This document shows, in pieces, positions 5,896-27,992 of a stretch of 46,819 nucleotides of DNA (its first letter is position 1; each line of letters opens with the position of its first letter). The notes under the pieces were generated by a model, which saw only the letters and a program-made list of their open reading frames with translations, was not told where the DNA came from and searched no databases. A program made the translations under genes and the position numbers. The stretch spans positions 1-46,819 of IMG/VR virus record IMGVR_UViG_3300010397_000056. One strand, given 5' to 3'. The DNA comes from a virus.

Positions 5896-6176
5896 CCCAT
5901 ACATTCGCCGAGTTCGGCAACCGCATAATCGCTGCAGCACTCATTGACGAAGATGGCCAGCTATGGTCACTCCCCGCACCAAAGCGCCACGGCGACATCA
6001 TGCGCTTCGCCTGCCAGCACGGCGTGAACCCCAACTGGCCGCCCGAGAGCCAAGGCTTCATCACTTCAACTGGCAAATTCGTGTCGCGTTTCCAAGCGCA
6101 TACGATTGCATTGCGCCACGGCCAGATCGACGCGCCACTACGCGGCAAAGAACTCTTCTCAGAGGACTTGTGGTAA
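5892..6176 (+). CDS. Hypothetical protein
   Basis: A 94-residue protein beginning MTHTFAEFGNRII, started at the ATGA overlap. Residues around RFACQHGVNPNWPPESQGF and FVSRFQAHTIALRHGQ suggest a compact alpha/beta domain; the pattern of a first strand ALIDEDGQLWSLPAP recurs in small phage proteins of unknown role. It ends one base into the next start (TAATG). Confidence 0.65.
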   Translation: MTHTFAEFGNRIIAAALIDEDGQLWSLPAPKRHGDIMRFACQHGVNPNWPPESQGFITSTGKFVSRFQAHTIALRHGQIDAPLRGKELFSEDLW

Positions 6177-6346
6177 TGCGCACACTTGCACTATCCCTCG
6201 CACAACTTCTCGAAATCCTCTGCAAAGCACTCCCAGATGTGCCACCAAACGCGGAGATCTTCCTCCGCATCCCAGATGGCGACGAGTGGGCCAACCAAGA
6301 ACTCGAAGTAGACAGATTGTATATCAGATATAAGGACAAGCCATGA
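6176..6346 (+). CDS. Small hypothetical protein
   Basis: A 56-residue acidic protein: a helix (LALSLAQLLEILCKAL), then a beta-rich segment with FLRIPDGDEW. It is joined by TAATG upstream and ATGA downstream. Function unknown. Confidence 0.6.
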   Translation: MRTLALSLAQLLEILCKALPDVPPNAEIFLRIPDGDEWANQELEVDRLYIRYKDKP

Positions 6347-6600
6347 AACGCTCCGCTAAACACCAAGCCATCGCTTCTGCCCGTCTTGGCGCGACTGACG
6401 ACCCACGCGAGTTCGAAGAGCATCTCGCGAAGCACGGCTATGCAGTTGTCTCGCTCCACGTCGAAGCACAGCGTAAAGTCGCAAACGAACTCGCAAAGCT
6501 CGCAAACCGCCTTGCCGGACTGGACCGGGCGATTTGCATGGAAGCCGCTGCGCTGCTGTTCTTCCAAGCAACTGAGTCTGCCAACAGGAAAGGAGTCTAA
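6343..6600 (+). CDS. Hypothetical protein
   Basis: An 85-residue, helical, mixed-charge protein starting MKRSAKHQAIA. Residues 35-65 form a probable amphipathic helix. It ends four bases before the ATG of the next gene, whose ribosome site AAAGGAG lies within its last codons. Confidence 0.6.
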   Translation: MKRSAKHQAIASARLGATDDPREFEEHLAKHGYAVVSLHVEAQRKVANELAKLANRLAGLDRAICMEAAALLFFQATESANRKGV

Positions 6601-6603
6601 CAG

Positions 6604-6738
6604 ATGCCACTCAAAAAAGGTTCCTCGAAGAAAACCATCTCGCAGAACATTAAGCGAGAAGTCGAAGCCGGCAAGCCGCAAAAGCAAGCCGTTGCTATCG
6701 CCCTGAGCAAGGCCGGAAAGTCGAACAAAAGCAAATGA
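6604..6738 (+). CDS. Small basic phage protein, DUF6496-like
   Basis: A 44-residue, very basic protein: [16 protein letters not shown], then a helix with the signature [16 protein letters not shown]. This short sequence recurs in many phages and is usually annotated as a hypothetical or DUF6496-type protein; its role is unknown, but the charge suggests nucleic acid binding. AAAGGAG precedes the ATG. The stop overlaps the next start. Confidence 0.75.
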
Positions 6739-6818
6739 TCCGTTTTCTCGCTCTCGCCATCTGGCTCACATTTCAAGCATTCGCGTTTGCCATGTTTGCC
6801 AGATGGCTTTTTTGCTAG
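6735..6818 (+). CDS. 27-residue transmembrane peptide
   Basis: [16 protein letters not shown] followed by [11 protein letters not shown] is almost wholly hydrophobic, enough for one membrane helix. It is coupled to the basic protein upstream by ATGA. The DNA also forms a terminator-like stem (6756-6807), so the frame may be constrained by RNA structure. Function unknown. Confidence 0.5.
6756..6813 (+). terminator. Terminator-like stem within a small gene
   Basis: GCCATCTGGC (6756-6765) pairs perfectly with GCCAGATGGC (6798-6807), directly followed by T6. The 32-base loop is long, so the strength is uncertain. A shorter alternative GCCAT/ATGGC hairpin uses the same T tract. Confidence 0.5.
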
Positions 6819-6830
6819 GAGCCCACTGAA

Positions 6831-7049
6831 ATGCACCAGAGTATGAAGTGGGGCACAATAATTCGCTACACTGGCAAGCCAATGCCACGCGCCGCGCGTG
6901 GTTGCCCTGAGAGCATCTGCACTCATCCAAAGCGCGGCCAGCTTTTCAAGCTCGAACATTCGCTGCGCGAACTCGAGCTACGAGACTACTCTCACGCCCA
7001 TGTGACTTGTGTTATTCGCGCCCTGCGCACTAAACGGAGAAAGAAATGA
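6831..7049 (+). CDS. Hypothetical basic protein
   Basis: A 72-residue protein that starts after AGGAG and ends in RTKRRKK. The middle contains GCPESICTHPKRGQLF, whose Cys/His residues do not make a clear zinc pattern. The charge suggests nucleic acid contact; no family recognised. ATGA overlap with the next gene. Confidence 0.6.
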   Translation: MHQSMKWGTIIRYTGKPMPRAARGCPESICTHPKRGQLFKLEHSLRELELRDYSHAHVTCVIRALRTKRRKK

Positions 7050-7303
7050 ACACAATCGAAGCTGCTAAAGAAACTCTTCAACTCGCCCACGCGTATGGAA
7101 TGCACAACTGCGACGTTGGCGAGGACTCTCTGCAATACGAGCATTTAGAAACTATGCTTTTGCAAATGCAAGGCGAGATGGACGAAGCAAAGCGCAATCG
7201 CTATCTCGGCTGGATACAATGCGCCGTGGTGGCTTTTGGAGTGAGCGAAGAAAATCGTCCGACTCTTGAGATGATGAAAGAGATTAATCGGAAATGGCTG
7301 TAG
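7046..7303 (+). CDS. Hypothetical acidic helical protein
   Basis: An 85-residue protein starting MNTIEAAKETLQLA. Helical throughout, with a central segment (YEHLETMLLQMQGEMDEAKRNRYLGWIQ) that I recall seeing in small phage proteins without known function. Coupled upstream by ATGA and overlapping the next frame by ten bases. Confidence 0.65.
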   Translation: MNTIEAAKETLQLAHAYGMHNCDVGEDSLQYEHLETMLLQMQGEMDEAKRNRYLGWIQCAVVAFGVSEENRPTLEMMKEINRKWL

Positions 7304-7446
7304 CGCTTCGCATTCTCGTTCTCTTGCAAGCCATTCGCGACGCTCGCGAAGCCGGCTTGCCGCCCCACATCCAATCGCTTCTCAACCAGATCGAATTCTA
7401 CATCGAAATCAACCACGAAGGAAAGAAGCATGGTAAAGAAAATTGA
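7294..7446 (+). CDS. Small hypothetical protein
   Basis: A 50-residue protein, MAVALRILVLLQAIRDAREA onward, overlapping the upstream gene by ten bases and the downstream gene by 17. The N-terminal helix is amphipathic rather than membrane-spanning. No separate ribosome site is obvious, so it depends on coupling. Confidence 0.5.
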   Translation: MAVALRILVLLQAIRDAREAGLPPHIQSLLNQIEFYIEINHEGKKHGKEN

Positions 7447-7678
7447 AAGCTGGCAGGCATCTGACGGCGTACTTTTCGCAGATGAAAAGCTTGCCATCCA
7501 GCACGAGTCATTCCACAGTGGCGTCGCGTCTGGCATCATGCAAGCAATTGTTCAGCTTGAAACTTGGGCCGAAATGGGCGCGGGCGGCAATCTGACGAAA
7601 GATGAAATCCAAATCAGCACACTCTGGAAAAACGCCCAAATGCTTCGTGAGCACTTCAAATTCCAAAACAAAATCTAG
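7430..7678 (+). CDS. Hypothetical protein
   Basis: An 82-residue protein beginning MVKKIESWQASDG, preceded by AAGGAAAG. Helical, with a glycine turn (AEMGAGGNLTKDE). No family recognised. The motif W-x-A-x-D-G-x-x-F near the N-terminus is shared with other small phage proteins I cannot name. Confidence 0.65.
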   Translation: MVKKIESWQASDGVLFADEKLAIQHESFHSGVASGIMQAIVQLETWAEMGAGGNLTKDEIQISTLWKNAQMLREHFKFQNKI

Positions 7679-7686
7679 GAGCAGAA

Positions 7687-8106
7687 ATGAAAAAATCCGA
7701 TGAACTCTTCAAAGCCGCTCTCGCCGCCAAAGCTGACGAGACGCAATTTGCCAAATCCCGAGTTGACCGCATGGCCGAGCATTCCACTCGCAATCGAGAC
7801 GCTTTGCGCCTCGCTCACTCACAGGCCCTTGCTTTTGTCGAGCAGAAACGCCAAGACCGTCTCAACGACTTGAACCGGCAGATTGACCTCGCAAACTCCG
7901 ACGCAAACGACCTCGTGCGCCAAATGAACGCCCTCTTCCAGCAAATGCTCGACCAAGAAGACACCCGACTTGCGGATTATTCGATGTTCAACGACGAGCT
8001 TGCAGGCTTTGTGGACAAGCGCAAACGCAATTCGGCAGAAGTGCCGAAGCTGCAAGTTGTGGAGGGAGCAGAAAGCGAGAAAACAGAGAAAACAGGAACA
8101 AATTGA
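7687..8106 (+). CDS. Hypothetical coiled-coil protein
   Basis: A 139-residue protein that is almost entirely charged helix from residue 5 to 115, consistent with a coiled coil, followed by an acidic Glu/Lys/Thr tail (EGAESEKTEKTGTN). AGGAG lies a few bases before the ATG. It could be a scaffold or inhibitor protein, but nothing in the sequence decides. Confidence 0.65.
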   Translation: MKKSDELFKAALAAKADETQFAKSRVDRMAEHSTRNRDALRLAHSQALAFVEQKRQDRLNDLNRQIDLANSDANDLVRQMNALFQQMLDQEDTRLADYSMFNDELAGFVDKRKRNSAEVPKLQVVEGAESEKTEKTGTN

Positions 8107-19274: not shown

Positions 19275-19669
19275 AACGCCGCTCTCTATTCAAACTCCTC
19301 AGCGGGCTCGTTGCACTGCCCTTTGTTAAGAAGCTTTCTCTGGCCGCACCTGCTTTTGAGCCCTACTATTACGACATTGCAACTGACACTTTCGTCTTCC
19401 TTCCCACAAACACAGTTCTCACTCTCGAAGTAGTCAAACAGCACTCTCTTAACCTTTGGAAAAGCGAGCTTATACGCCAATGCCTAGCCTCTCCTCACAC
19501 CATTCCTCCGAAACAACAAAACTCCTCTTCATTGGAGACAGTTCGAGTGGAAAAACTGGCGCCCTTGCGAGTCTTGCTGCCGCCGGATACAAACTCCGAA
19601 TTCTCGACTTCGACAACGGCATCGACGTGCTCAAGCACTGGCTCACGCACCCGAATTCGAGCTACTTGA
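19271..19669 (+). CDS. Tat-signal-like small protein overlapping the ATPase gene
   Basis: Starts MKRRSLFKLLSGLVALPFVKK, a twin-arginine-type signal (K-R-R-S-L-F-K then a hydrophobic stretch). Residues 30-70 look like a genuine short domain, with L-T-L-E-V-V-K-Q-H-S-L-N-L-W. Similar Tat-leader proteins are common in phages, with no known job. From residue 71 on, the frame runs for 190 bases inside the ATPase gene and becomes Ser/Thr-rich, which suggests that the tail is a by-product, so the original stop may have been lost. Confidence 0.55.
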   Translation: MKRRSLFKLLSGLVALPFVKKLSLAAPAFEPYYYDIATDTFVFLPTNTVLTLEVVKQHSLNLWKSELIRQCLASPHTIPPKQQNSSSLETVRVEKLAPLRVLLPPDTNSEFSTSTTASTCSSTGSRTRIRAT

Positions 19670-20358
19670 AAACCAATCCAAGTTGCCTTGACAACGTGCA
19701 CTACGTCACGCTCACCGACCCGATGAAGGCCGCCGCGAACGGCAAGCTGTACTACACAAAGGCGCAAGCTTGGGCACGGGCCATGAACCTGCTCTATGAA
19801 TGGAAAGATGGTGACATCAATCTTGGCAAGATCACAACTTGGGGGCCAGATACTGTGCTGGTGATCGACTCACTAACAATGTGCACAACTGCAGCCCACA
19901 CGCATCACTTGTCCATGAATGGCAAACTTGCCGCAAATCCCACCCAAAACGAAGCGCGTCGCGACATCGGCCAAGCCCAGAACTACATCCGCGACTTGCT
20001 CACGATGCTCTACGACAAAGAAGTCAAATGCAACGTCATCATCACGAGCCATATCGTGTACGTCACTGAGCAAGGCACCGCTCCTAAGCCAGACGAGCCC
20101 AATAGCGGTGGAATGCCCATTGGCTACCCATCTACAATCGGCCGCGCGCTTTCACCTCACGTGCCACGCTGGTTCAACAACATGCTCATTGCCCGGACAG
20201 AAGGGGCTGGAAGCATGGCAAAACGAAAAATCTTCACCGTGCCACAGGTTATCGGCGGGCAACTGGTGAACGCCAAAATCAGCGCCCCGCTCGCCGTTGC
20301 TAAAGAGTACCCAATTGAAACTGGTCTCGCGGACTTCTTCAAGGCACTTCGCACATGA
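19480..20358 (+). CDS. Sak4-like RecA-fold ATPase
   Basis: A 292-residue ATPase. Walker A G19-D-S-S-S-G-K25-T; Walker B V-L-V-I-D130-S. The fold and spacing (D-F-D-N-G after the first helix; an I-I-T-S-H strand) fit the AAA_24/Sak4 group of phage single-strand annealing or recombination ATPases. ATG 19480 is chosen because the homologous domain begins just after it; an ATG at 19456 adds eight residues. Its neighbours, the Cas4-like nuclease and the putative SSB, are its usual companions, supporting a role in recombination or recombination-dependent replication. Confidence 0.82.
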   Translation: MPSLSSHHSSETTKLLFIGDSSSGKTGALASLAAAGYKLRILDFDNGIDVLKHWLTHPNSSYLKTNPSCLDNVHYVTLTDPMKAAANGKLYYTKAQAWARAMNLLYEWKDGDINLGKITTWGPDTVLVIDSLTMCTTAAHTHHLSMNGKLAANPTQNEARRDIGQAQNYIRDLLTMLYDKEVKCNVIITSHIVYVTEQGTAPKPDEPNSGGMPIGYPSTIGRALSPHVPRWFNNMLIARTEGAGSMAKRKIFTVPQVIGGQLVNAKISAPLAVAKEYPIETGLADFFKALRT

Positions 20359-21030: not shown

Positions 21031-22356
21031 ATGCTTTCGAATGATTACGCACAAATTGCGCCGAGTATGATTATGGTTGACCGCGAGAAGCGGCAACGCA
21101 AGAACATCGACGTGAGCGACTTGCTGACGTCAATCCCGCACAAGGGAATTCTCAATCCGATAATCATCACACCAGAGAACGTGCTCGTCGCCGGTGAGCG
21201 AAGACTCGCCGCCGCGATTAAGCTTGGCCTACACACCGTTCCGGTCAGATACTCGAACACACTCTCCGAGACCGAGCGGCAGTTGATTGAACTGGAAGAA
21301 AATCTCAAGCGGAAAGATTTGTCTTGGCAGGAAAACTCACAGGCGGTGAAGCGCATTCACGAGCTTTACGTCTTGCAGGACAAGACTTGGACCCAGACGC
21401 AAACGGCCGAAGCCATAGGCATTACAATTGGCTACATGAGCCAGTTCATGACCGTTGCGGCGCACATGGACAAGGAGATCGTTGCTAGCGCATCAAGCAT
21501 CGAGTCCGCCATGAACATAATTTCACGCTCGAACGAACGCAAGATCGCCGACGCGCTTGCGAGTATTACCGAACTCGGCGCGAAAATGTTCGACCCGAAG
21601 CCCGCTCCGCTGAAGCCTGGCGAGCCACCCACGCCAATCCCCGCACCGCCCAAAGTCGAGGAGTCCATCTTACAGGGAAGCTTCTTGGAATGGGCTCCGC
21701 GCTATGAGGGCCGTCCGTTCAATCTCATCCATTGTGACTTCCCATTCGGCATCAACGTTTTCGCTGGCAAGCAGGCCAACACCAAAGGCGAGCACGATTA
21801 CGACGACAAGCCTGACTTGTATTGGGAACTCATCGACTGTCTCTGCGAGAACCTCAATCGCGTCATGTCGCCAAGCGCCCATCTCGTGTTCTGGTTTCCA
21901 TTCGACTACTACACATCCACGCTGGAGCGTTTTCGCAAAAAAGCTCCCTCGCTTGCATTTCAAAACGTGCCACTCTTCTGGCACAAGTCAGACAACATTG
22001 GCATTCTACCAGATGCAAAACGCGGGCCGCGAAGAATAGTCGAGTCTGCATTCATCGCATCGCGTGAAGATCGATTTATCATCAAAGCAACGAGTAACTC
22101 TTACCCCGCACCAACCGACAAAGCCTTCCATCCATCCACAAAGCCTGAGCCGGTGCTGCGGTACTTCTTCCAAATGTTCGTGGATGAAAACACTCGCCTG
22201 CTCGATCCGACATGCGGCAGTGGCTCTGCGCTTCGTGCCGCCGAGTCGCTCGGCGCGAACTATGTGTTTGGAATTGAACGCGACAAGGAGCATTTTGAAG
22301 GCGCACAAATTGCTCTGAAAAAATTCCGCGCCCTCAAGCGTGCAACGGAGAAATAA
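21031..22356 (+). CDS. ParB-like domain fused to a DNA methyltransferase
   Basis: A 441-residue fusion. Residues 10-190 are ParB/Spo0J-like: V-A-G-E-R-R-L-A-A (G55-A61) is the ParB nuclease/CTPase motif, followed by a KorB-type helix-turn-helix. Residues 215-440 are an N6-adenine/N4-cytosine methyltransferase with motif IV D236-F-P-F-G in place of the usual D-P-P-Y/F, and motif I L-L-D392-P-T-C-G-S-G later, i.e. the beta-class order. The ParB part probably directs the enzyme to particular DNA. Likely role: self-methylation against host restriction, or control of gene expression. Whether D-F-P-F-G is active cannot be told from sequence. Confidence 0.85.
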   Translation: MLSNDYAQIAPSMIMVDREKRQRKNIDVSDLLTSIPHKGILNPIIITPENVLVAGERRLAAAIKLGLHTVPVRYSNTLSETERQLIELEENLKRKDLSWQENSQAVKRIHELYVLQDKTWTQTQTAEAIGITIGYMSQFMTVAAHMDKEIVASASSIESAMNIISRSNERKIADALASITELGAKMFDPKPAPLKPGEPPTPIPAPPKVEESILQGSFLEWAPRYEGRPFNLIHCDFPFGINVFAGKQANTKGEHDYDDKPDLYWELIDCLCENLNRVMSPSAHLVFWFPFDYYTSTLERFRKKAPSLAFQNVPLFWHKSDNIGILPDAKRGPRRIVESAFIASREDRFIIKATSNSYPAPTDKAFHPSTKPEPVLRYFFQMFVDENTRLLDPTCGSGSALRAAESLGANYVFGIERDKEHFEGAQIALKKFRALKRATEK

Positions 22357-22360
22357 GATC

Positions 22361-22579
22361 ATGGCCAAACATAGAATAGACGAGTACAATCCTTTAGCTG
22401 AAGAAACAAAGCAGAAGGCCGATTTGCACAAAGCTCCCCCCGCGCATGACACAATCGAGCTTCGTGAGAAGGCTCTTCATTTGTCAATCGGCTTTTATGC
22501 AGGAAGCGGCGTAGACACAGACCATATCATCAAAGGCGCAGAAGCATTTCTGCAATTTATGCTCGGGGCAAAAACATGA
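22361..22579 (+). CDS. Hypothetical protein
   Basis: A 72-residue protein, MAKHRIDEYNPLAEETK onward. The end reads as a helix (IIKGAEAFLQFMLG). Four bases separate it from the methyltransferase stop, and it overlaps the kinase gene by ATGA. ATG 22361 is preferred to 22340, which lies inside the upstream gene. Confidence 0.6.
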   Translation: MAKHRIDEYNPLAEETKQKADLHKAPPAHDTIELREKALHLSIGFYAGSGVDTDHIIKGAEAFLQFMLGAKT

Positions 22580-23142
22580 AAGTCATTGCGCTTAGCGGGC
22601 CGAAAGGCTCTGGCAAGAGCGAAGTTGTCAAGGGAATTAGAATGGTCGCTGTGTCACGTCTTGGTGTTCGTTCCCAAAACTTCGCCGACCCACTCAAAGA
22701 AATGCTTCTCTGCCTCATGCAACGCTACGGCTATTCAGAGCAATTTGCAAAAGACTGTCTATGGGGCTCGATGAAAGAAGAGCATCTTAACATCTGGCAA
22801 AACAAGTCCACGCGCTATGCTATGCAAACTCTCGGCACAGAATGGGGCAGAGACTTGCTTGGAGAAAACTTCTGGGTTAACATCTGGAGTGCTGGTTGCA
22901 AGCGGCATCCAAGCGATTTAATTCTTGTTGAAGATTTGCGCTTCATGAACGAATATCGCGCAATCAAGCAACTCAATGGAATTATAATTCGCGTAACACG
23001 TCCCGGCTTTGAGGGCGACTCGCATCGCTCTGAAACCGAAGCACGATTTTTCGAAGCTGATCACGTAATCACAAACGATGGAAGCCTACTCCAACTCCAC
23101 GTCCGTGTCGAAGCTCTTGCAGAGCGACTTCTTGCAGCATGA
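22576..23142 (+). CDS. Deoxynucleoside monophosphate kinase
   Basis: A 188-residue protein of the T4 gp1-like dNMP kinase family. Walker A G8-P-K-G-S-G-K14-S is followed by F-A-D-P-L-K, and M-Q-T-L-G-T-E-W-G-R is the family's conserved substrate-binding helix; a V-E-D-L-R-F strand and V-I-T-N-D-G near the C-terminus also fit. It converts dNMPs, from host DNA breakdown or modified pools, to dNDPs for phage synthesis. It is coupled to the UDG-exonuclease gene by ATGA, tying nucleotide supply to replication. Confidence 0.85.
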   Translation: MKVIALSGPKGSGKSEVVKGIRMVAVSRLGVRSQNFADPLKEMLLCLMQRYGYSEQFAKDCLWGSMKEEHLNIWQNKSTRYAMQTLGTEWGRDLLGENFWVNIWSAGCKRHPSDLILVEDLRFMNEYRAIKQLNGIIIRVTRPGFEGDSHRSETEARFFEADHVITNDGSLLQLHVRVEALAERLLAA

Positions 23143-24215
23143 ATTACGTTCGCCCTGATCCACTCACGCCATTCGCCCACACCAGCGGTCCACGCAACGC
23201 AAAGATTGCGCTCGTTGGTGAGGCATTTGGCGAGCAAGAAGACATGGTAGGGCTGCCATTCCAAGGGCAAAGCGGACAAGAGTTAACGAGATTGCTAGAA
23301 GAAGCGGGAATTGCGCGAAGGGATTGCTTCTTGACGAATTTCATTCCGCTTCGTCCGCCGAGCAATAATTTTGATCTTTTCTGCGCTAAGAAAAAAGAAG
23401 TCGGTGGGAAGGACTACCACCACGAACCACTCGGTCAAGGCAAGTATTTGCGTCCGGAGTTCTTGCCTCACATCCAGCGCCTCAAGCACGAACTCGAAGC
23501 TGTCAACCCCAACATCGTCATTCCGCTCGGCGCGAAAGCCTGTTGGGCACTCTTCGGCGTCGCCAAGATCGGAGCGCTGCGTGGCACAGTTGCAATTGGC
23601 AATCTCTGCCCAAGACTTAAACTCCTTCCAACCTATCATCCCGCCGCGCTTTTTCGCAACTGGTCGCTACGGCCGATAGTCGTAGCGGATTTGCTCAAGG
23701 CCGCGCGCCAAAGCGAATTCCCCGACATTCGCCGCCCTGCCAGATGGGTACTAATCGACCCAACCTTTGACGAAATCCATGCGTGGATCGAGAAGCATCT
23801 CGCACGTGCAGATGAATTCGCTGTTGACATCGAAACAAGCGGCGGCATGATCACGTGTATTGGCTTTGCGCCAAATCCGCGTCACGCGCTTGTCATTCCC
23901 TTTCTCGATCGTCGCAAGCCAGATGGCCACTACTGGCCAACGCTCGAAGACGAAATCGCTGCTTGGAAGATCGTCCGCTACATACTAGAAGAACTCCCCG
24001 GCAAGAAAGTCTTCCAGAATGGATTGTATGACTTGCAGTACATCGTGCAAATGGCAATCCTCCCACGCGACTGCGAAGACGACACAATGCTTCTCCACCA
24101 TTCCATCTACCCCGAACTTCAAAAGTCTCTCGGCTTCCTAGGCAGCATCTACACAGATGAAGCCTCTTGGAAGCTAATGCGAGAGAACAAAGAAGAACTG
24201 AAACGAGACGAATGA
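23139..24215 (+). CDS. Uracil-DNA glycosylase fused to polymerase 3'-5' exonuclease part
   Basis: A 358-residue fusion. Residues 20-195 match family 4/5 uracil-DNA glycosylase: V-G-E-A-F-G-E-Q-E-D (27-35), L-P-F-Q-G-Q-S-G and the T-Y-H-P-A-A-L motif. The N-terminal C-x-x-C of the iron-sulphur cluster is missing. Residues 225-358 are the DnaQ-like exonuclease of family A polymerases: Exo I V-D230-I-E232-T-S and Exo II N294-G-L-Y-D298. It stops after a D-D-T-M-L-L-H-H segment without the last motif; Exo III (Y-N-G-L-D) is in the polymerase gene 826 bases downstream. It would remove uracil and, with its partner, proofread. Confidence 0.85.
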   Translation: MNYVRPDPLTPFAHTSGPRNAKIALVGEAFGEQEDMVGLPFQGQSGQELTRLLEEAGIARRDCFLTNFIPLRPPSNNFDLFCAKKKEVGGKDYHHEPLGQGKYLRPEFLPHIQRLKHELEAVNPNIVIPLGAKACWALFGVAKIGALRGTVAIGNLCPRLKLLPTYHPAALFRNWSLRPIVVADLLKAARQSEFPDIRRPARWVLIDPTFDEIHAWIEKHLARADEFAVDIETSGGMITCIGFAPNPRHALVIPFLDRRKPDGHYWPTLEDEIAAWKIVRYILEELPGKKVFQNGLYDLQYIVQMAILPRDCEDDTMLLHHSIYPELQKSLGFLGSIYTDEASWKLMRENKEELKRDE

Positions 24216-24226
24216 AAGGAAAAGAA

Positions 24227-24640
24227 ATGTTTACGATGCTAAAAAAACTCTTTGGGTTTATCCCATACTCTCCGCCTGCTTCGAAAGTCGGCCTGAAATA
24301 CGACACCATGCCAACGAGCAACCCCACATTTCTCAAAATCGAACCGATCCAGCCAGCACCACCTGCTTTATCTCGGTGGGAAATCATGGAGTCACAGCGG
24401 TCGCATCTCATGCACGACCTACTTGTCACAGCAAAGAATAAAGGCTGGAATTGGAAAGAAGGCCCGATCTTGCAAAATCCAAAGCGCAAAGCAATAACTC
24501 TGCCACTTTACGGCAATGAAATTTATGGTGCCTTTGCAGAAGAGCTGCGTAAACGCTATCTGCAAGGCAACACGATCTTCATCTACACACCAGCCCACGC
24601 CAAATATTACGAAGTTCAGTTCTACAAGAGCGCCAAATGA
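24227..24640 (+). CDS. Hypothetical protein between the polymerase halves
   Basis: A 137-residue protein beginning MFTMLKKLFGFIPYSP. AAAGGA six bases before 24227 supports this start; ATG at 24212 would give an ATGA overlap and five more residues. A Pro-rich segment (40-55) joins a short N-terminal helix to a domain with W-N-W-K-E-G-P-I-L and strands near the end. No nuclease motif, so it is not a homing endonuclease of a known type. Function unknown. Confidence 0.6.
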   Translation: MFTMLKKLFGFIPYSPPASKVGLKYDTMPTSNPTFLKIEPIQPAPPALSRWEIMESQRSHLMHDLLVTAKNKGWNWKEGPILQNPKRKAITLPLYGNEIYGAFAEELRKRYLQGNTIFIYTPAHAKYYEVQFYKSAK

Positions 24641-25038
24641 AACGGGTCATTCTTGAGTCGCCCTATGCCGGAAAAGACCCGAGCATAGCAATCGCAAAAA
24701 TCCAACGAGGCAGAAATATCATCTACGCGCGGCTCTGCGTGATGGACTGTATCCAGCGCCTCGAAGCACCAATCGCCTCGCATCTTCTCTACACTCAGCC
24801 GGGAATATTGCGAGACGAAATCGAAGCGGATCGCAATCGCGGTATTGAGGCTGGATTAGTGTGGCGCAGCGTTGCAGAAGCAAGTGTTGTGTATATTGAT
24901 CTTGGCATAACGACTGGGATGCAGTATGGCATGAAGCTTGCAGATGATGCTGGCATTCCAGTCTTCAAACGCAACCTTGACCAGCATAAATTCGAAAAAC
25001 TTTGTCGTGGGCTTTACGACGATCAAGTAGTCTGGTAA
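24637..25038 (+). CDS. DUF7768-type protein, deoxyribosyltransferase-like
   Basis: A 133-residue protein. V-I-L-E-S-P-Y-A-G-K, then Y-A-R-L-C-V-M-D-C, E-A-P-I-A-S-H-L-L-Y-T-Q and D-L-G-I-T-T-G-M are signatures of a phage and bacterial family I know as DUF7768. The layout, with a first strand ending S-P-Y-A-G and an A-S-H-L motif, resembles nucleoside 2-deoxyribosyltransferases. A role in nucleotide metabolism fits the dNMP kinase and glycosylase nearby but is inference. ATGA overlap upstream; the polymerase starts three bases after its stop. Confidence 0.75.
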   Translation: MKRVILESPYAGKDPSIAIAKIQRGRNIIYARLCVMDCIQRLEAPIASHLLYTQPGILRDEIEADRNRGIEAGLVWRSVAEASVVYIDLGITTGMQYGMKLADDAGIPVFKRNLDQHKFEKLCRGLYDDQVVW

Positions 25039-25041
25039 CGC

Positions 25042-26565
25042 ATGCCAATCATTGCAACGCACGAACTCGCACCGGGACAACTCGACTCTCACACTTCACA
25101 CCAAACCTATAACGGGCTGGATTGTTGTGTGACGATGGAAGTGCTTGGTGAACTGCGGCATCTCTTCAACGAGCCGCCAATTGCGTACAATTTCGAGCGT
25201 GCGTTGCAAGGGCCTGTTTTGGAGATGGAGCTTCGTGGATTTAAAATTGACGAGTTTGAACGTCAATCTGCCATCAAGCATATCGAAGAGGACGTGCTAC
25301 GCCATCTCGAAAGTATGCTCGATGAGTTCGCTCAGGCGGTCTGGGGCAAGCCACTCAACCCACGTTCGCCCGACCAACTCAAAGAATTCTTCTATGGCAC
25401 GATGAAGCTTCCAGAAATCTGGACTTCCATTAAGGGCGAGAAAAAGCTCTCAATGGGGCGCGAGACACTCGAAAAGCTCCAAGTCTATTTCCACGCCATA
25501 CCAATAATCAACTGCATTCTTGCAATCCGCGATTACAAAAAGCAACTCGAAGTGCTCCGCACCGAAGTTCGAAACGGGCGCATGTACACGAGTTACAACA
25601 TCGGCGGAACTGAAACATGGCGCTTTTCGTCCAGCGCTGATGCGTATGGCAGCGGCGGCAACATCCAGAATATCAAAAAAGACCCCGATGATCTGGAGCG
25701 ATCCAAGAAGCGTTCCATTCGCAGGATGTTCGTCAGCGATGATGGCTGGAAGCTCATCGGTATTGATTTGGAACAGGCGGAGAGCCGAGAAGTCGGATGG
25801 CTCTTATGGATACTCTTCGGCGACTCGACGTATCTTGATGCTTGCGAGTCGGGCGATCTGCACACAACCACATGCAAACTCATCTGGCCGAACTTCGCGT
25901 GGAACGGCGACCCGAAGCACGACCGAGCAATTGCCGACCAAACCTTCTATCGCGAGTTTTCCTACCGTGATATGAGCAAGCGCGGTGGCCACGGCACGAC
26001 CTACTATGGAACTCCATTCACCATGTCGCGCCACTTGAAAGTCACGGTCAAGATGATGGAAGAATTTCAGCAGAAGTTCTTCTCTGCCTATCCCGGCATT
26101 CCACGCTGGCATCAATGGGTTGCACAGCAAATCCAAACCCACCCCCACGCGATTACAACTCCATTCGGTGCCACACGCCACTTCTTCGGCCGACCGAACG
26201 ACGACACAACGCTGCGCGAGGCGATTGCCTTCTCGCCCCAGTCATCCACCGCTATGCGCCTGAACCTCGCTCTGTGGCGTATTTGGAAGCACATGGGCAA
26301 GCGAGTTCAACTCCTCGCTCAGGTTCACGATGCGCTTTATTTCCAGTTCCGCGAAGGCGACAACGAAGCAGAAGTTGTAAAGATCGCACTGGAATTCTGC
26401 AAGGTGCTACTCGGACACAGAGGCCGCAAGTTCATAATTCCGGGCGAGCCTAAGTCTGGGTGGAATTGGGGCAACTATCATGAGCGAATTAATCCTAATG
26501 GCTTGAAAAAGTTCAAAGGACAAGACGAGAGAACACGTTTAACCGGCTTACAGAGGGTCATGTGA
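25042..26565 (+). CDS. Family A DNA polymerase, polymerase part with Exo III
   Basis: A 507-residue polymerase. Y23-N-G-L-D27-C-C-V-T is the Exo III motif (Y-x3-D) of the proofreading domain. Then come thumb helices, T-E-T-W-R-F-S-S-S and N-I-Q-N-I, motif A D242-L-E-Q-A-E-S-R, motif B with K313-R and Y322-G, and motif C V-H429-D430-A. All polymerase catalytic residues are present. Full-length phage family A enzymes also carry Exo I and II; here those are in the upstream UDG fusion. It should replicate the phage genome, probably in complex with that protein. No ribosome site is obvious before the ATG, so it likely depends on coupling. Confidence 0.9.
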   Translation: MPIIATHELAPGQLDSHTSHQTYNGLDCCVTMEVLGELRHLFNEPPIAYNFERALQGPVLEMELRGFKIDEFERQSAIKHIEEDVLRHLESMLDEFAQAVWGKPLNPRSPDQLKEFFYGTMKLPEIWTSIKGEKKLSMGRETLEKLQVYFHAIPIINCILAIRDYKKQLEVLRTEVRNGRMYTSYNIGGTETWRFSSSADAYGSGGNIQNIKKDPDDLERSKKRSIRRMFVSDDGWKLIGIDLEQAESREVGWLLWILFGDSTYLDACESGDLHTTTCKLIWPNFAWNGDPKHDRAIADQTFYREFSYRDMSKRGGHGTTYYGTPFTMSRHLKVTVKMMEEFQQKFFSAYPGIPRWHQWVAQQIQTHPHAITTPFGATRHFFGRPNDDTTLREAIAFSPQSSTAMRLNLALWRIWKHMGKRVQLLAQVHDALYFQFREGDNEAEVVKIALEFCKVLLGHRGRKFIIPGEPKSGWNWGNYHERINPNGLKKFKGQDERTRLTGLQRVM

Positions 26566-26792: not shown

Positions 26793-27992
26793 GTGGACTG
26801 GATAGACTCCTTCATGGAGTACACACAAGGCAAACCTACGCCTGACATATTCCGCCTATGGAGCGGAATTACAACCATTGGCGGGGCGCTGGAAAGACGT
26901 GTCTGGACCCAACTCAAGCCGGGGCCGATATTTCCAAACCTCTTCACGCTCCTCATGGCATTACCAGCGGTCGGCAAGGGAATGGCTATAAACTCGGGGC
27001 GCGAAATGTGGGCCTCGACAAAAGGCAAACTCCACATCGCGCCCGATGGCGTTTCCAAAGCGAGTTTTCTCGATGAACTAGAACTCGCCGCGACAAAGCT
27101 CCCGACAAACAATGGCGCAAATTTACTCGAATATCATTCGCTTTGCGTCTCTGCAAGCGAATTCGGCACTCTCGTTCCTAAGCATGACACCGAATTCCTC
27201 AATGTGCTGAATAAAATCTACGACGCCGAGTCGTCCTATCGTGACTCAAAGCGCCATTCCAAAAACGTCGATCTTGTCAATCCAATCACAACCATACTCG
27301 GCGGCACACAGCCAGCCTTTCTTGCCTCAATCCTCCCCGAGGAAGCATGGGGCATGGGCTTTATGTCGCGCATGATCATGGTCTACTCCCAATCCACCCC
27401 CCAGATCGACATTTGGGATACAAACGATGACTCCACTACAGGCGATCCGCACCTTCGGAAACTCCTCTTCGACGGCATGAACCGATTTCTGAACATGATC
27501 GGAGGGTTCAGCTACGAGCCGGATGTGAAGAAAAACATCTCCGAATGGCTAAAATCCGGCCTCGCACCCATCCCAGAGCACAATAAACTCCAGCATTACA
27601 ACGGGCGCCGCATTCTAACTCTTATCAAACTCTGTATGATTAGCTCTGCAAGTCGCAATAAGACGCTCGTTGTTACGGATTTGGACTTCCAGCGTGCAAA
27701 GGCGTGGCTCTTGGAGGTCGAGTTCTACATGCCAGACGTGTTCAAGGAAATGGTGCATCAGTCAGACGGGCAGGTCATCCAAGACTTGCATTTCTTCATG
27801 TGGAAAATGTTCGTCAAGGACAAGAAATCAATTCACGAGTCGCGATTGATTTCCTTTCTTTCACAGCGAGTGCCGAGTGATAGAGTTCTTCGTGTGCTGG
27901 AAGTCGCCGAGCGGTCGAACGTGCTGAAACGTTATAGTGGCTCGCAGATGTTCGAGCCTATTCCAAAGACGGATTGGAGTCCGGTTGGATAG
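26793..27992 (+). CDS. DUF3987-like replication ATPase with altered Walker A
   Basis: A 399-residue protein starting at GTG. E-Y-T-Q-G-K-P-T-P-D-I-F-R-L-W-S-G-I-T-T-I-G-G-A-L is the family opening of DUF3987-like phage replication proteins; later S-E-F-G-T-L-V, N-P-I-T-T-I-L-G-G-T-Q-P and G-M-G-F-M-S-R also fit. These are RecA-fold ATPases thought to be helicase-type. Here the P-loop reads A56-L-P-A-V-G-K62-G: first glycine and the Ser/Thr after Lys are both replaced, so ATP hydrolysis may be weakened or lost. It ends the + strand module, next to the polymerase gene. Confidence 0.7.
   Translation: MDWIDSFMEYTQGKPTPDIFRLWSGITTIGGALERRVWTQLKPGPIFPNLFTLLMALPAVGKGMAINSGREMWASTKGKLHIAPDGVSKASFLDELELAATKLPTNNGANLLEYHSLCVSASEFGTLVPKHDTEFLNVLNKIYDAESSYRDSKRHSKNVDLVNPITTILGGTQPAFLASILPEEAWGMGFMSRMIMVYSQSTPQIDIWDTNDDSTTGDPHLRKLLFDGMNRFLNMIGGFSYEPDVKKNISEWLKSGLAPIPEHNKLQHYNGRRILTLIKLCMISSASRNKTLVVTDLDFQRAKAWLLEVEFYMPDVFKEMVHQSDGQVIQDLHFFMWKMFVKDKKSIHESRLISFLSQRVPSDRVLRVLEVAERSNVLKRYSGSQMFEPIPKTDWSPVG

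Follow-up and report, generated by a model that had tools for sequence, protein, structure and literature searches.

Can a family A DNA polymerase proofread when the three motifs of its 3'-5' exonuclease are encoded by two separate genes? The question is raised by the window analysed here, the complete 46,819 bases of the IMG/VR virus record IMGVR_UViG_3300010397_000056, in which Exo I and Exo II are located in a protein with an N-terminal domain of the uracil-DNA glycosylase (UDG) superfamily (subunit 1), and Exo III at the beginning of the polymerase itself (subunit 2), encoded by a separate open reading frame (ORF; Table 1). Very probably, the locus encodes a naturally split, two-subunit family A replicative polymerase, whose proofreading site is predicted to be rebuilt in trans.

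Division of the exonuclease domain

The DEDD motif set (Exo I D-x-E, Exo II N-x(3)-D, Exo III Y-x(3)-D) is complete in the window, but spread over two chains. Subunit 1 provides D230 and E232 of Exo I and N294 and D298 of Exo II, and ends with a conserved Trp-Lys pair (W344-K345) followed by a tail of 13 residues. Subunit 2 opens with Exo III (Y23, D27, T31 and E33), which precedes the polymerase motifs A (D242), B (R309/K313/H317/Y321) and C (D430). From the stop of the first gene to the start of the second, 826 bases (24216-25041) accommodate two intact genes. The original prediction, which was made from the letters of this DNA, had given this gap as well as the coordinates and residue numbers of D230, E232, N294, D298, Y23 and D27, and all of them proved exact.

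By sequence, the two proteins read as consecutive pieces of one polymerase. Pfam detects the UDG domain of subunit 1 with an E-value of 3e-24, and a weak match to a 3'-5' exonuclease was obtained as well. The DNA polymerase profile phrog_17 is covered consecutively, from 476 to 804 by subunit 1 and from 808 to 1232 by subunit 2. Likewise, the profiles of both halves map to a single Klenow chain, subunit 1 to positions 14-125 and subunit 2, beginning at its residue 19, to positions 170-602. Assuming a chain start at residue 324, these stretches correspond to Klenow residues ~337-448 and ~493-925, and little but a linker is therefore missing between them.

AlphaFold2 models were calculated for each subunit alone, using alignments without the row of Caulobacter phage Kuura, a cultured relative described below. 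Subunit 1 is predicted with a mean predicted local distance difference test score (pLDDT) of 93.5 and nine disordered residues at the C-terminus; its fold matches UDGs of the family 4 type, the Klenow exonuclease and the phiLo polymerase 9qhs. For subunit 2 the mean pLDDT is 93.7, the first 50 residues being less certain, with a helix predicted for residues 16-41.

Conservation of the break and of the motif residues

To gather relatives, IMG/VR was scanned with profiles of the split proteins, taking the best 80 per scan, and all counts refer to fetched loci; one scan of GTDB genomes added a few relatives, including L173 and L175. The same break between Exo II and Exo III is present in at least 281 fetched loci, or 196 after dereplication at 95%, among which polymerase identity falls to 35%. 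One further contig is identical to the window. The motifs are distributed over separate ORFs in 281 of 281 loci, and no single-ORF member was found among the fetched loci with both halves, a result which cannot prove absence from the clade as the scans were seeded with split proteins.

The isolate genome of phage Kuura shows the same split arrangement at ~40% identity, with two different small genes between the halves, which comprise 369 and 560 residues. Kuura reaches a titre of ~10^10 plaque-forming units/ml (PMC9959647). Since it forms plaques with split genes, the arrangement supports phage growth. The relevant part of the same paper names a DNA polymerase and makes no mention of a split (PMC9959647), and subunit 1 is annotated as hypothetical in the Kuura record.

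A sequencing or assembly error masking one continuous gene has a virtually negligible probability. A few loci do look faulty, such as L083, in which the halves lie on opposite strands; as its ends share inverted sequence, this locus was treated as an assembly chimera rather than a genuine inverted arrangement and was left out of the tree and of the statistics on 90 dereplicated loci. The counts refute an error as the general cause: 281 loci from many assemblies and one isolate genome carry the break with differing genes in the gap. The hidden continuous frame considered in the original prediction is likewise excluded by halves that reside in separate ORFs, adjacent to kilobases apart, on hundreds of contigs.

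All six motif residues (D230, E232, N294, D298, Y23 and D27) are kept in 278 of the 281 split loci, and the other three lack an aligned Exo I/II stretch. Within the first 50 residues of subunit 2, the only invariant columns across the 90 dereplicated loci are Y23, D27, T31 and Y49, followed by L26 and E33. The Exo III motif is not known to act in polymerisation. Judged from these alignments, its conservation in subunit 2 is not due to chance. The possibility that proofreading has been lost, with the truncated UDG-exonuclease and the short Exo III piece persisting as relics or purely as structural contact surfaces, appears improbable. It draws on metagenomic viral PolAs tested in vitro, none of which had detectable exonuclease activity (PMC9069017), but a relic would not hold its metal ligands invariant while the proteins diverge this far, and a role in contact only has no need of Y23, D27, D230, E232 and D298.

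In a polymerase tree of 60 rows, the 41 split representatives form one clade with a Shimodaira-Hasegawa-like approximate likelihood ratio test (SH-aLRT) support of 100, and 12 single-chain representatives form a separate clade beside it (SH-aLRT 99). Owing to long outgroup branches the deeper order is unsure, which leaves the unity of the split clade unaffected. When single-chain relatives were used for the scan, 69 of the 80 loci listed had one ORF; among the other 11, the break falls in the polymerase domain in seven and in the UDG-exonuclease part in three, while one is cut off by the contig end. Going beyond the original prediction, the split is seen to be an old, clade-wide trait, with intervening genes that are interchangeable.

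Two loci show additional irregularities. In L316 (5935-7912), a member of the split clade, the polymerase is apparently interrupted again near the C-terminus (ORFs 5935-7470 and 7346-7912), and in L037 (3905-5036) subunit 1 seems to be divided between two overlapping ORFs, one for the UDG and one for the exonuclease part, due to either a frameshift error or a further split.

Co-evolution between the two chains

Contacts between the chains were addressed by mean-field direct-coupling analysis of paired split sequences only, on a reduced set of columns (273 pairs, effective number 165); of all tests applied, this is the strongest. Eight of the ten top inter-protein pairs fall within polymerase residues 1-52, where 16% would be expected, versus two of ten for UDG against polymerase, and the top coupling score is 3.15 versus 1.38. 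The two best inter-protein pairs rank 3 and 4, counted from zero, among all long-range pairs including those within a chain. The strongest pairs (subunit 1-subunit 2) are G242-C28, H320-L38, V291-M32, P247-G36 and D314-R53, together with T239-N24, S322-E52, V291-L35 and A250-E61. The UDG part gave no comparable signal with polymerase residues 1-230.

After dereplication at 95%, the first, fifth and tenth scores are 3.63, 2.04 and 1.69, respectively. Random re-pairing destroyed the signal (maxima of 20 draws: 1.87, 1.17 and 0.99), as did re-pairing among the eight nearest relatives, whose polymerases share a mean identity of 68% (maxima of 20 draws: 1.22, 0.89 and 0.81). Since the latter null retains deep ancestry, the signal reflects change that took place after the split, in two chains that were no longer joined.

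The coupled polymerase residues 24, 28, 32, 35 and 36 are spaced at roughly one turn of the predicted helix 16-41. Their partners, within residues 237-254 and 289-292, are found in the predicted strands 237-246 and 289-292 and in the turn after the first strand. In the DEDD fold, the Exo III helix is expected to pack on the exonuclease sheet. As indirect evidence on the structure of the complex, the couplings strongly support a placement of the Exo III helix of subunit 2 against the exonuclease β-sheet of subunit 1. Together with the retained residues, they also uphold the preference of the original prediction for assembly in trans over loss of proofreading; the disappearance of these residues from relatives, which it had named as evidence to the contrary, did not occur.

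That subunit 1 has another partner, or that the Exo III helix serves a function on the polymerase side, with no active site being shared, is highly improbable. In principle, a UDG-exonuclease might be active on its own, and in E. coli Pol III the exonuclease epsilon is a separate subunit. However, the strongest couplings link precisely the two pieces which make up a single domain in the one-chain relatives, and re-pairing among near relatives abolishes them. Moreover, the Exo III aspartate is a metal ligand in these exonucleases, the metals of ExnV1 contacting the equivalents of Klenow D355, E357 and D501 (PMC9629493).

Two points weigh against a proofreading site shared by the two chains. The distances of the two subunits correlate no better with each other than a neighbouring replication gene does with the polymerase (r 0.63 for exonuclease subunit and polymerase, 0.70 for primase and polymerase), and whole-gene co-divergence of the mirror-tree type, lacking any excess correlation, was dropped as evidence. 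Furthermore, co-evolution shows contact, not catalysis.

In the proposed assembly, subunit 1, comprising the UDG and an exonuclease domain without its last core helix, would dock on subunit 2. The N-terminal Exo III helix of the polymerase chain would pack across the exonuclease β-sheet and bring Y23 and D27 to D230, E232 and D298, by which one two-metal 3'-5' proofreading site would be rebuilt. With the Exo III aspartate completing the site, proofreading would depend on both chains; the active enzyme would be a physical heterodimer with exonuclease activity, and neither subunit would proofread alone. Most likely, the split arose once from a single-chain UDG-exonuclease-polymerase, and later turned into an entry point for unrelated cargo genes.

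Geometry of the break

Across the 90 dereplicated loci, the C-terminus of subunit 1 lies 10-17 residues beyond the invariant Trp-Lys, and subunit 2 mostly begins ~22-26 residues ahead of the Exo III tyrosine. In single-chain relatives, the conserved Trp-Lys and the Exo III tyrosine are joined by a linker of roughly 15-20 residues. The two subunit genes overlap in some loci and are as much as 4.6 kb apart in others; counted from the stop of the first gene, the Exo III codon is reached after 57 nt to 4.7 kb.

Gaps of more than 120 nt (80 dereplicated loci) are mostly filled with ORFs (median 97%), which form 96 clusters. The largest cluster, found in 21 loci, is the DUF7768 type of the window, the commonest intervening gene in the clade and yet absent from many members. 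One cluster has an HNH-like sequence, as judged by eye. Intervening gene 1 of the window has no family match in Pfam or PHROG and, as far as tested, appears to lie outside the enzyme, being replaced by unrelated genes in relatives. From its variable contents, the break presents itself as a permissive insertion point, and the pattern is not that of an intron.

Rejoining of the halves into one chain by an mRNA intron, a split intein, or ribosomal frameshifting or bypass is extremely unlikely. Phage polymerase genes frequently contain introns and inteins, the authors describing phage MEP401 considered an intron for their own split polymerase (PMC10580990), and one single-chain relative among the present loci contains an intein-like insert. 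Rfam, however, detected no intron in 15 sequences (the window, L003, L005 and 12 further split loci), and an intron finds no room where the Exo III codon follows the stop within 90 nt, as in 31 of 196 loci; in 27 of 196 the two are separated by more than 1 kb with unrelated coding sequence. A split intein was rejected on the short tails at the break, which leave no space for intein halves on either chain. Because the spacing varies and the intervening genes are unrelated, sequence error, intron and intein are, on the genomic data, ruled out or very unlikely as cause of the break.

Comparison with other polymerases

E. coli DNA polymerase I Klenow shares fold and motifs with the split enzyme, both halves aligning by sequence and by fold, but is a single chain without a UDG domain. 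Replicative polymerases naturally encoded in two pieces include cyanobacterial DnaE, a split-intein polymerase, and the family B polymerase of Methanothermobacter, which consists of two polypeptides without an intein and differs in polymerase family and break point. PolB of phage MIJ3, a replicative polymerase in two pieces, is taken to be joined by a putative split intein (PMC6892783). The split clade differs from such split-intein polymerases in having no room for an intein half at the break.

Closer in architecture are the already known single-chain UDG-exonuclease-polymerases (PaBG gp205, PMC7412058; Mel-JY34; ctMlz233), which have the same domain order and motifs; the phiLo polymerase (PDB 9qhs) is probably of this type as well. 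Microcystis phage Mel-JY34 also shares gene neighbours, a methylase before and a DUF3987 protein after the polymerase. At the site of their linker, the split clade shows a stop codon, in some members intervening genes, and a second start. In the single-chain relative L226 (3971-7246; by length also in L227-L229), an intein-like insert of ~285 residues is located in the finger (O-helix) region.

In OM43 phages of the MEP401/402 type, a family A polymerase is known to be divided at another point, and its two ORFs, in many cases separated by a small gene, are conserved within the lineage (PMC10580990). Unlike in the split clade, it is the polymerase domain (PF00476) that is interrupted, and the exonuclease is whole on the first ORF. 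Family A polymerases of the related single-chain group (L008, L218, L219, L224, L246-L248 and L251) are broken at a similar place in this domain, in some cases around an intervening gene, and resemble MEP401 in this respect. In ctLwi270 (L010, 1727-4364), UDG-exonuclease and polymerase occupy two ORFs with a gene between, as in the split clade, but the break follows Exo III, leaving the exonuclease site complete on the first chain. The intervening ORF of ctLwi270 encodes 86 residues and is NrdR-like by the look of its sequence. The open-access literature yielded no previous account of a family A polymerase divided between Exo II and Exo III; patents and papers under subscription, for example on Rhodothermus phage RM378, were outside this search.

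The UDG and polymerase domains

The UDG domain of subunit 1 (23139-23720) resembles family 4, with the UDGs 1l9g and 1ui1 as best fold matches. Both the G-E-x-x-G and the H-P motif are present, H167-P168 being conserved, and the glycosylase motifs are mostly kept. The N-terminal CxxC of the family 4 4Fe-4S cluster is absent in the window, and a CxxC ahead of the motif occurs in only 8 of 281 loci. The domain is therefore likely to be a cluster-free, polymerase-linked UDG.

Subunit 2 carries the PF00476 domain together with motifs A, B and C of family A polymerases, and matches Taq, Bst and Klenow in the PDB by sequence and fold. Among ungapped split members, D242 is present in 277/277, R309 in 276/276, K313 in 275/275 and D430 in 270/270. 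At the residue corresponding to E. coli PolA 762 (H317 in the window), which is Phe in Klenow, 274 of 275 ungapped split polymerases have His; the pertinent part of a study on virioplankton PolA names only Phe, Tyr and Leu types at this position (PMC6302109).

Genomic context

The features of the window are compiled in Table 1. The DUF3987/primase-like gene that follows the polymerase lies near it in most of the clade, 85 of 90 dereplicated split pairs having such a gene at their locus.

Table 1. Subunit genes, intervening genes and neighbouring features of the polymerase locus (positions in the window).
Feature	Position	Strand	Length (aa)	Description
Sak4-like gene	19456-20355			Sak4-like single-strand annealing ATPase, same replication module
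ParB-methylase gene	21031-22356			ParB N-terminal domain and DNA methylase domain in one protein, upstream of polymerase module
Upstream neighbour	22576-23142	+		Deoxynucleoside monophosphate kinase; overlaps subunit 1 start; Pfam DNMK E 6e-17, phrog_139
Subunit 1 gene	23139-24215	+	358	N-terminal UDG-superfamily domain ~16-190, then truncated DEDD 3'-5' exonuclease domain
Intervening gene 1	24212-24640	+	142	Start overlaps subunit 1 stop (ATGA)
Intervening gene 2	24637-25038	+	133	DUF7768 / nucleoside 2-deoxyribosyltransferase-like; Pfam DUF7768 E 4e-22, phrog_355 E 6e-17
Subunit 2 gene	25042-26565	+	507	Exo III helix, then family A polymerase; Pfam DNA_pol_A E 5e-34
Downstream neighbour	26793-27992	+		DUF3987 / primase-helicase-like; phrog_14296 DNA primase E 6e-49

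Implications

An active site with metal ligands from two gene products, kept over a long time in hundreds of phage sequences, is unusual. Annotation of such loci is at risk: the first half may be called hypothetical, as in Kuura, and the polymerase might be scored as exonuclease-deficient. A more far-reaching proposal is that proofreading is detachable and regulated, the UDG-exonuclease subunit binding and leaving the polymerase and the active site existing only as long as the heterodimer does. This is a tentative idea, which we consider rather unlikely; if true, the phage could run its polymerase with or without proofreading and uracil sensing. The split enzyme would offer a natural system for the coupling of proofreading and polymerisation, in which the proofreading half could be removed, swapped or mutated without altering the polymerase chain, and with Kuura a cultured phage carrying the arrangement is available for such tests.

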